From: Deltaproteobacteria bacterium RIFOXYA12_FULL_61_11
GTDB taxonomy: Bacteria; Bdellovibrionota_F; JAHFAK01; YA12-FULL-61-11
NCBI GenBank assembly: GCA_001799195.1
Contig: MGSU01000118.1
Span: 1 to 46,488, forward strand
Direction of reading: 5' to 3'
Length of the DNA: 46,488 bases
Shown: in pieces, positions 24,026 to 34,871 of the stretch
Layout of the letters: each line of letters starts with the position of its first letter
Numbering within the stretch: the stretch's first letter is position 1
Position numbers and translations under genes: made by a program
The notes under the pieces: generated by a model
What the model was told of the DNA's origin: nothing
What the model saw: the letters and a program-made list of their open reading frames with translations, nothing else
The model's database searches: none

Positions 24026-24083
24026 GAGGATGGCAAGGGTCCAGTACCGGAGATGGGAATAGCGTATCCCTACCGATCACATT

Positions 24084-24272
24084 CCTTCAGTCTTGGGGTG
24101 GATTGCAGTTTGTTTGTCACCACCTTAGGGTGGCGCCGACGGGGGACCCCCGCCACGCGCAAGCATGAGCATGGTAGGGGCGGCCGCAAGGATGCGGACC
24201 TCCAGCGCCGCGCAGGATGCAGCGGCGTCGGTGTGAGAGGCGACAGGACCCCTTACCTTCCAAGACTGAAGG
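24084..24272 (+). repeat. Structured repeat element, long copy (13-bp terminal inverted repeats)
   Basis: Bounded by CCTTCAGTCTTGG (24084-24096) and its perfect complement CCAAGACTGAAGG (24260-24272). It matches the reverse complement of 34206-34343, with long identical tracts (about 46 nt spanning 24129-24174, and 23 nt near 24235-24257). Internal stems: CCACC/GGTGG (24120-24133), or alternatively GTGGC/GCCAC (24130-24134 with 24152-24156) around GGGGG-A-CCCCC. An extra 53 nt (24183-24235), absent from the other copy, holds two hairpins: CCGCA-AGGA-TGCGG (24184-24197) and CGCCGC...GCGGCG (24206-24227, also an AGGA loop). No target-site duplication is evident. It lies between two divergent promoters. 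It could be a MITE-like element or a structured RNA. Confidence 0.85.
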
Positions 24273-24296
24273 TTTACACCACGATGAGTCTTTTGC

Positions 24297-24325
24297 TTGT
24301 CTTGCCGCAAGGCGACGGCTAGGAT
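24297..24325 (+). promoter_or_regulatory. Promoter of the 24.4-kb lipoprotein / rmlA unit
   Basis: -35 TTGTCT (24297-24302), 17-bp spacer, -10 TAGGAT (24320-24325), leader about 31 nt. It lies downstream of the repeat element, so the element is outside the predicted transcript. Both hexamers are identical to those of the thioesterase promoter at 39167. Confidence 0.55.
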
Positions 24326-24362: not shown

Positions 24363-25145
24363 ATGCGCGCGATGAGGTGGTGGTCGGGTTGTGGGATAGT
24401 CGTGCTGAGCACGGTATTGGGCTGCGGTGGGTCCTCGGATTCGAAGGATCCGACGCTGGTCGATGTCTGGTTCGTGCAGAAGATCAAGGTTGGTGGCGCC
24501 GAGCTCGCAGGCGTGGATGGCTTTTTCCAGGTGCGGCAGAATCGTTCGGTGCGAGGTTTCTTGGCCTACGAGACCACGGTGGGGACAGCCACGGTGGCGC
24601 GCAGCGCCGACTTCACCGGTTCGCTCAAGGCCTCTGACGGCAACCTCGAGCTCAACCTGAAGGCCGATCGCACCCAGGACGAGGTGGTCCTCTCGGATCT
24701 CCAACTCACCACCGAGGGCGCCACGAGGACCTATCAGGTCTCGGAGGTAGGTAAGACGTTGTCTTTCAAGATCGAGGCCGGATCTGTCAGTGTGGAACTG
24801 GAGTTCCTGGGTCTGCTCGGAACCTGGACCCTGAGCGCCCTGGTCGAAGACGGTGCGACGGTACCCACGGCGAGCGGTTCTCTGGAATTGGCCGACAGTG
24901 GCACCTATTCCATGATCAGAACCAAGCCCACGACCGCCGGCACCAACACCGTGCAGGCCAGTGGATCCTATGAAGTGCAACGTTCCGCCCAGGGTGAGAT
25001 CGGTCTGGAACTCAAGCAGCGTCAACCCGCGGTCATCTCCATCCCCTGCACCTTTGCCCTTGCCCTGCACAGCCTGGACCTGACCTGCACCACCACCCTG
25101 GGAGCTGTGTCCGTGGTCACCGAAGAACGTTATTCGCGTCCGTGA
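24363..25145 (+). CDS. Lipoprotein, lipocalin-like
   Basis: 260 aa. Signal peptide with lipobox V-L-G-C (Cys near 21), then G-G-S-S-D-S-K. The mature part is made of short alternating strands and two halves that each begin with an aromatic turn (L-V-D-V-W-F-V-Q and L-L-G-T-W-T-L-S), the pattern of lipocalin-like domains annotated in many lipoproteins; no specific family is claimed. Start ATG 24363 has GGGAGG 6 nt upstream. The gene ends 7 nt before rmlA, suggesting co-transcription. Function unknown. Confidence 0.78.
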   Translation: MRAMRWWSGCGIVVLSTVLGCGGSSDSKDPTLVDVWFVQKIKVGGAELAGVDGFFQVRQNRSVRGFLAYETTVGTATVARSADFTGSLKASDGNLELNLKADRTQDEVVLSDLQLTTEGATRTYQVSEVGKTLSFKIEAGSVSVELEFLGLLGTWTLSALVEDGATVPTASGSLELADSGTYSMIRTKPTTAGTNTVQASGSYEVQRSAQGEIGLELKQRQPAVISIPCTFALALHSLDLTCTTTLGAVSVVTEERYSRP

Positions 25146-34139: not shown

Positions 34140-34205
34140 GATGCTCCCCTGAAGGCGGGCTGACCTCTCTCCGAAGGAAAACCCTGCTACCCGCCGAAAA
34201 GTAAC

Positions 34206-34343
34206 CCTTCAGTCTTGGTTTGGGTAAGGGGTCCTGTCGCCTCTCGCCCCCACCATGCTCATGCTTGCGCGTGGCGGGGGTCCCCCGTCGGCGCCACCCC
34301 AGTGTGGTGAAAAACAACCTGCAATACACCCCAAGACTGAAGG
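34206..34343 (-). repeat. Structured repeat element, short copy (13-bp terminal inverted repeats)
   Basis: Same perfect 13-bp termini (34206-34218 and 34331-34343) and core as 24084-24272, in opposite orientation, but without the 53-nt double-hairpin module. The terminal stem can extend by GGGT/ACCC with a 3-nt bulge. It sits between the accD promoter and the start of the response-regulator gene. Confidence 0.85.
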
Positions 34344-34469
34344 TATACGCCGAGAACCGCTTTGCTCTTTTCAAAAGACCCGGGTTGGGCTATGCGTAGC
34401 GAAGTTCCCCGGGAGGCCGTTCGACCTCGATCCCGCGAACGAGGCCACCCTGAACCGGGAGGTATGCCA

Positions 34470-34871
34470 ATGACGCCGCTCCGCCTCCTCTTCGCCGAGG
34501 ATAACGAGGACATCCGCGAGATCGTAAAGTTGTTCCTCCAAACCATTTTACCCGCTGATAGCTATACCTTGACCCTGGTCGAAGACGGCGGCGCGGCCTT
34601 GACCCATCTTCGCGCCCATCCCACGGATGTGGCCTTCCTCGACTTGAGCATGCCGGTGCTCGATGGTTGGACCCTTGCCGCGACGATCAAGGCAGACCCG
34701 GCCCTGGCAAAAACCATCCTCATCGCCGTGACCGCGCATGTCATGGAGAAGGACCGCAAGCGGGCCGTCGAGGTAGGTTTCGACGATTTCCTCAAGAAGC
34801 CGATCTACCCCGAAACCTTGCAAGAGGTCCTCGAGCGGCATGTCGGTTCAAGGGGACAAGGAGCAGCATGA
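34470..34871 (+). CDS. Single-domain (CheY-like) response regulator
   Basis: 133 aa, receiver domain only. Acidic pair E10-D11, phospho-acceptor Asp58 (F-L-D-L-S-M-P), T in I-A-V-T-A-H and Lys in F-L-K-K-P-I complete the set. With no output domain it must act by protein contact. No histidine kinase is nearby. I start at ATG 34470 (GGGAGG 7 nt upstream); ATG 34464 is too close to that site. Its stop overlaps the ROK kinase start (ATGA), so the two proteins are made together. Confidence 0.9.
   Translation: MTPLRLLFAEDNEDIREIVKLFLQTILPADSYTLTLVEDGGAALTHLRAHPTDVAFLDLSMPVLDGWTLAATIKADPALAKTILIAVTAHVMEKDRKRAVEVGFDDFLKKPIYPETLQEVLERHVGSRGQGAA

Follow-up and report, generated by a model that had tools for sequence, protein, structure and literature searches.

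A probable lineage-specific MITE family with insertion locked to promoters and REP-like modules at fixed internal sites

Two copies of a short repeat lie in opposite orientation in the 46,488-nt stretch of DNA analysed here (the window), both bounded by perfect 13-nt inverted termini (CCTTCAGTCTTGG / CCAAGACTGAAGG), and they raise the question of what kind of element this is, how it came to occupy its sites and why its copies differ in length. A first-pass annotation had described the pair in these terms, and the sequence confirmed the description: matching of the 13-mer places the termini of copy A at 24084..24096 (+) and 24260..24272 (-) and those of copy B at 34206..34218 (+) and 34331..34343 (-). 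The two copies show 92% complementarity across 102 nt, and copy A exceeds copy B by 51 nt. This difference in length, a point missed in the earlier reading, is a separate REP-like module inside copy A, at approximately 24181-24233.

Concerning the size of the family, BLAST against the genome of origin (a 4.64 Mb draft of 342 contigs, 87% complete) at E<=1e-4 returned 47 matching places, while the whole-genome covariance-model search that had been proposed earlier, with a model trained on 26 copies, returned 87 copies. A single segment duplication with no further copies, the outcome that the first-pass annotation had named as fatal to its proposal, is clearly at odds with this number. The 13-nt end, with at most one mismatch, occurs 99 times in the genome against three occurrences of a reversed-pattern control. 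Alignment of the flanks of 74 copies revealed that conserved bases run 5 nt past the 13-mer, giving GTA(A/T)N-CCTTCAGTCTTGG ... CCAAGACTGAAGG-N(A/T)TAC, and the termini as previously delimited are 5 nt too short, since an 8-bp direct duplication sits 5 nt further out. The basic form of the element is consequently 148 bp in length with 18-bp ends, and is devoid of an ORF. On the combined basis of family ends, BLAST and covariance model, copy A spans 24079..24277 (+), with outer ends ACATT-...-TTTAC, and copy B, which is free of modules, spans 34201..34348 (-), with outer ends GTAAC-...-TATAC.

Target duplications, which were also among the checks suggested at the outset, were found directly beyond the 18-bp ends: a match of at least seven of eight positions was observed in 24 of the 74 copies and a perfect one in 15, compared to a mean of 0.34 and a maximum of 5 copies when flanks were re-paired by shuffling. 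Copy B is flanked by GCCGAAAA at 34193..34200 (+) and GCCGAGAA at 34349..34356 (+), matching at seven of eight positions; no 8-bp target duplication is present in the flanks of copy A. Truncated copies of the element are also present in the genome. The suggestion of a MITE-like element is thus borne out by the numerous additional copies, some of them truncated, by the target duplications and by the lack of coding capacity; the family is short, noncoding and dispersed, and carries terminal inverted repeats, as MITEs do. A derivative of approximately 93 bp, in which the central hairpin has been lost and both ends kept, was noted at locus L157 (G000:C161), positions 2615-2707.

The search for a matching transposase, likewise proposed earlier, produced none. 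Among the matches listed for the 87% complete draft, no pair of ends lies 0.3-3 kb apart as would be expected of an autonomous element, and models for Transposase_mut/IS256 and ISKra4 found no match in this genome. Orphan ends, at contig ends and in contig interiors, were considered as remnants of such a partner and turned out to be MITE copies that were truncated or broken by a contig boundary, or else unrelated intragenic matches. Descent from an IS66 element was set aside, as the sole IS66 transposase of the genome, on contig C91, is accompanied by no matching element ends within two mismatches, although it lies near a contig end. The partner transposon may be missing from a draft that is 87% complete. 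The covariance model detected no copies in 58 other genomes (one from the same phylum and 57 more distant), and exact core and module patterns were absent from GTDB r220 and from viral contigs, collections in which records near the genome of origin may be left out.

The interior of the element is organised around a conserved core, which in copy A is palindromic and split by the module (24127..24252, +) and in copy B forms a continuous stretch of 73 nt (34228..34300, -), both as defined by alignment. Strong conservation of this core, as originally claimed, proved correct: in the 50 copies without module M2, entropy per column is 0.14 bits in the 73-nt core as compared to 0.86-0.92 in the arms and 0.58-0.72 in the ends, and pairs of copies whose left arms are less than 55% identical still share 94% of the core. 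Three types of module were found within the family, each at a single site: M2 in 24 copies, M1 (54 nt) in 12 and M3 in a few, while the M1 site is empty in 69 copies with identical junctions. Each module consists of two hairpins and a GGAG or GTAG tag. Module comparison assigned the insert of copy A to M2, with a length of approximately 53 nt (24181..24233, -), two hairpins and a GGAG tag whose motif occupies 24186-24203 (-).

Read in reverse orientation, a module has the tag-plus-palindrome layout of GTAG-type REPs. The single-hairpin tag pattern occurs at 84 places in the genome against none for the control, GGAG being the more frequent tag among these REP-like units, and the stems of the modules comprise six complementary variants. 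The genome contains 12 Y1_Tnp matches, several of which represent full RAYT genes, and the same REP-like units are found at the 3' end of, or inside, RAYT genes; tandem arrays of such units, with a period of 54 nt, occur outside the MITE. The modules therefore combine the attributes of GTAG-type REPs, namely tag and palindrome, many copies and RAYT genes linked to the repeats. At locus L146, on the short contig G000:C287, 54-nt REP-like tandem arrays occupy several of the gaps between genes (101-1026 and 2669-2723), and units beside a CCGACG motif lie within coding sequence, RAYT genes included, at L147 (617-757), L153 (approximately 69-86) and L151 (810). A second repeat, of approximately 190 nt and ending in GGGGTCAGTCTTTTTTCGACGCGTCGG, brackets an alpha/beta hydrolase gene at 1-71 and 1545-1740; its sequence also follows RAYT genes at L115, L120, L133, L134 and L136, so that the repeat could represent the decayed 3' end of a RAYT gene.

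Comparison of the modules with the arms of the copies that carry them speaks to how the modules spread. The left and right arms are correlated in their divergence (Mantel r=0.42, p=0.0004), whereas the sequence of M2 (r=0.10, p=0.18) and that of M1 (r=0.02, p=0.39) are uncorrelated with the arms. Identical M2 sequences occur in copies whose arms differ by 33-40%, and module presence shows no association with the nearest relative by arm (0.486 vs 0.455, p=0.38). As neither sequence nor presence is linked to the arms, modules would appear to pass between copies, be it through RAYT action or through gene conversion. Movement of the REP-like units as such is deduced from these patterns, which copy-to-copy gene conversion could also produce: the modules would then be immobile and spread by central gene conversion among copies, for which the near-identical inner core offers some homology on each side. 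We regard this as a serious possibility, yet one that we are inclined to doubt, given that the inner homology amounts to only some 30 bp per side and that the same units are also found beyond the MITE, in association with RAYT genes and as arrays.

As regards the sites occupied by the element, gene calling at all loci relied on a codon-usage finder for which the window served as training sequence, and none of 91 MITE copies overlaps a gene call. The gaps around 65 copies are divergent in 36 cases, co-directional in 28 and convergent in a single case, compared to 14 convergent gaps among 82 controls. In 59% of copies, as against 12% of random intergenic points, the distance to the closest gene start is 76-110 bp, and no gene start lies within 60 bp of a copy in the set analysed for context. 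When 81 flanks were aligned on the element end, TTG emerged at positions 24-26 and TA at positions 47-48, a pattern that reads as the -35 and -10 hexamers of a predicted promoter with a spacing of 17 bp. Twelve flanks have a TTGACA-like hexamer (at least five of six matches) at position 24 and four have one at position 25, compared to approximately one at other positions. Strong promoter-like pairs number 22 at positions 23-25 (16 at position 24, two at 23 and four at 25), where 1.0 is expected per three positions (Poisson p ~4e-22). A pair in this register, the -35 element of which begins 19 bp outside the MITE, accompanies 47 of 89 copies against the 7.7 expected from shifted registers; for the remaining half or so, no in-register promoter was detected when scored against an E. 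coli-type consensus.

Both copies in the window fit the register of the family: copy A is followed by the promoter-like TTGTCT-17 nt-TAGGAT (24297..24325, +), which precedes a gene called at 24402-25145, and copy B by TTTTCA-17 nt-TATGCG (34368..34396, +), which precedes a response-regulator gene at 34470. The earlier statement that the copies lie upstream of predicted promoters was correct and turns out to describe the key property of the family; what had escaped notice is that the distance between element and promoter is fixed to approximately 1 bp. The distance to the start codon is variable (s.d. 23 bp), indicating that the lock is on the promoter and not on the start codon, and the orientation of the element relative to the promoter is balanced (23 vs 20). 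By standard promoter geometry, the duplicated 8 bp at approximately -54 to -47 would coincide with the upstream edge of promoter-bound RNA polymerase.

A fixed distance of this kind might also be the product of selection, with random insertion followed by survival only between upstream genes and promoters and with some copies kept as promoter-upstream regulatory cassettes whose end repeat is centred at about -64. In agreement with such a scenario, genes are free of copies, as are the 60 bp next to a start, and the conservation of the core above that of the ends suggests a function. Selection is nonetheless unlikely to have imposed a lock of approximately 1 bp across dozens of copies, and the share in register among copies with clear duplications (17 of 24, 2.3 being expected) is no lower than among those without (26 of 52). 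Moreover, convergent regions should tolerate insertions and yet hold only one of the 65 copies. We consequently consider a distance that was selected rather than targeted to be an unlikely origin of the pattern, and retain insertion directed to the promoter.

The conserved core equally invites the view, advanced as one option in the first-pass annotation, that the element is a mobile structured RNA or riboswitch-like element in which the fold is the unit of function. Its near-invariant core does form a stable fold, and the check for covariation was partly positive: one stem pair is GC in 46 copies, AT in 27 and GT in one, with no mismatches, so that pairing is preserved in 74 of 74 copies with G.U tolerated on one strand, although this could reflect few events. 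The two mutually exclusive folds described earlier can be drawn for the consensus, yet the copies do not maintain both. At the central hairpin, where the pair is G.T in 64 copies, A-T in 16 and G-C in one, the A variant (G.U to A-U) strengthens the hairpin and breaks the downstream GGTGG/GCCAC alternative in 16 of 84 copies, while the upstream alternative is impossible in 16 of 84. A two-state switch is hence unsupported as a maintained feature and was dropped. Either strand of the element folds with about equal stability, and a riboswitch or other known structured RNA was rejected in the absence of an Rfam match at gathering or relaxed thresholds. Furthermore, most copies are positioned upstream of promoters and over half lie between divergent genes, so that no host transcript would be expected to read through them. 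The RNA interpretation is thus improbable; the structure of the core could equally act as DNA, and the position upstream of promoters speaks for DNA. A cobalamin riboswitch (74 bits) was recorded near one MITE copy, at L026 1795-1916.

That the modules are CsrA-binding hairpins and the element a CsrA decoy, as the loops GC-A(A/U/G)GGAU-GC and GCAGGAUGC on its + strand (ANGGAU loops) and a CsrA gene in the genome (69 bits) might suggest, is highly improbable and was set aside in favour of the REP explanation once RAYT-linked units and tandem arrays had been found, since that explanation directly accounts for units that combine a GTAG/GGAG tag with a palindrome and lie both at RAYT genes and in arrays, and since the modules are absent from most copies, which should not be transcribed in any case. 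The CsrA gene is located at L132 (G000:C112:33503-33658), and a link between it and the ANGGAU loops of the REP hairpins of this genome is possible.

Based on these findings, the family is probably a lineage-specific, non-autonomous DNA transposon (MITE) with insertion locked to promoters of the sigma70 type and with internal REP-like modules at fixed sites. We infer that a DDE transposase recognising the GTA(A/T)N-CCTTCAGTCTTGG ends would insert the element where promoter-bound RNA polymerase has its upstream edge; since both ends are nearly identical, either orientation would be possible, and insertion just upstream of the promoter would spare genes and core promoters. The palindromic core would serve as a landing and loss site for REP-like repeats of the RAYT system of the genome, such that modules could enter, leave or be exchanged among copies independently of the descent of their carrier. 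The constancy of the core might stem from homogenisation, from protein binding or from a role as a cis signal in transposition. More tentatively, and with considerable doubt, it may be proposed that the transposase lies outside the known promoter-targeting Mutator-like families and docks on promoter-bound RNA polymerase, while RAYT-driven gain and loss of REPs takes place at two fixed core sites.

Should this hold, a single genome would contain REP sites in both the filled and the empty state, as a natural set. The filled and empty module sites within one repeat family make it possible to address directly if REPs move, and by what means, a process described as poorly understood (PMC8266576). 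The dozens of promoter-locked copies in an under-sampled phylum suggest that the promoter-locking strategy is wider, and the copies mark promoters in a genome for which there are no transcript data. The family matters mainly as a natural record of the choice of landing sites by two kinds of mobile DNA.

Among known systems, bacterial MITEs with structured interiors include ERIC, NEMIS/Correia, RUP, Bcr1 and Nezha (PMC3733652). The present family resembles them in size, terminal inverted repeats, lack of coding sequence, intergenic position and strong hairpins, and differs from them in its promoter-locked site, a core conserved above the ends and REP-like modules at fixed sites. The BOX elements of Streptococcus pneumoniae are modular small repeats in which the number of internal units varies; our family is similarly modular, whereas its units are REP-like and are found outside the element at RAYT genes too. 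The IS66 family is characterised by GTAA ends and 8-bp duplications, which the GTAA-like ends and 8-bp duplication of the MITE resemble, and this likeness may be taken as a lead, while we know of no promoter targeting by IS66. GTAG-type REPs carry a GTAG or GGAG tag followed by a palindrome, form arrays and are associated with Y1 transposase genes, and REP dimers have been noted inside other palindromes in Anabaena variabilis (PMC2817692, PMC3733652). The modules differ from GTAG-type REPs in their 54-nt double-hairpin unit, the predominance of GGAG over GTAG and their recurrent sites inside a MITE.

The closest parallel in behaviour is provided by TnGBS ICEs, ISLre2 (p-MULT 3) and ISKra4-group ISs (p-MULT 4), whose insertions lie upstream of sigmaA promoters, at a constant distance from the -35 (PMC3942029). 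Promoter-targeting p-MULT elements generate target duplications of 8 or 9 bp and have inverted repeats of at least 18 bp and a spacing of 13-17 bp, and in ISKra4-type ISs whose inverted repeats are near-perfect, promoters are located on both sides (PMC3942029). Our family shares with these elements the 8-bp duplication, the 18-bp ends, the fixed promoter distance and promoters on either side; unlike them, it encodes no transposase and its spacing is 19 bp rather than 13-17, and no transposase was found in the draft genome with the ISKra4 and Transposase_mut/IS256 models. In the literature, which was covered in part, no MITE with such promoter-locked insertion was encountered. Promoter-targeted insertion as such has precedents in TnGBS, ISLre2 and ISKra4 elements, by analogy with which the MITE family would work like a promoter-targeting element and may be viewed, from its behaviour, as a p-MULT candidate.
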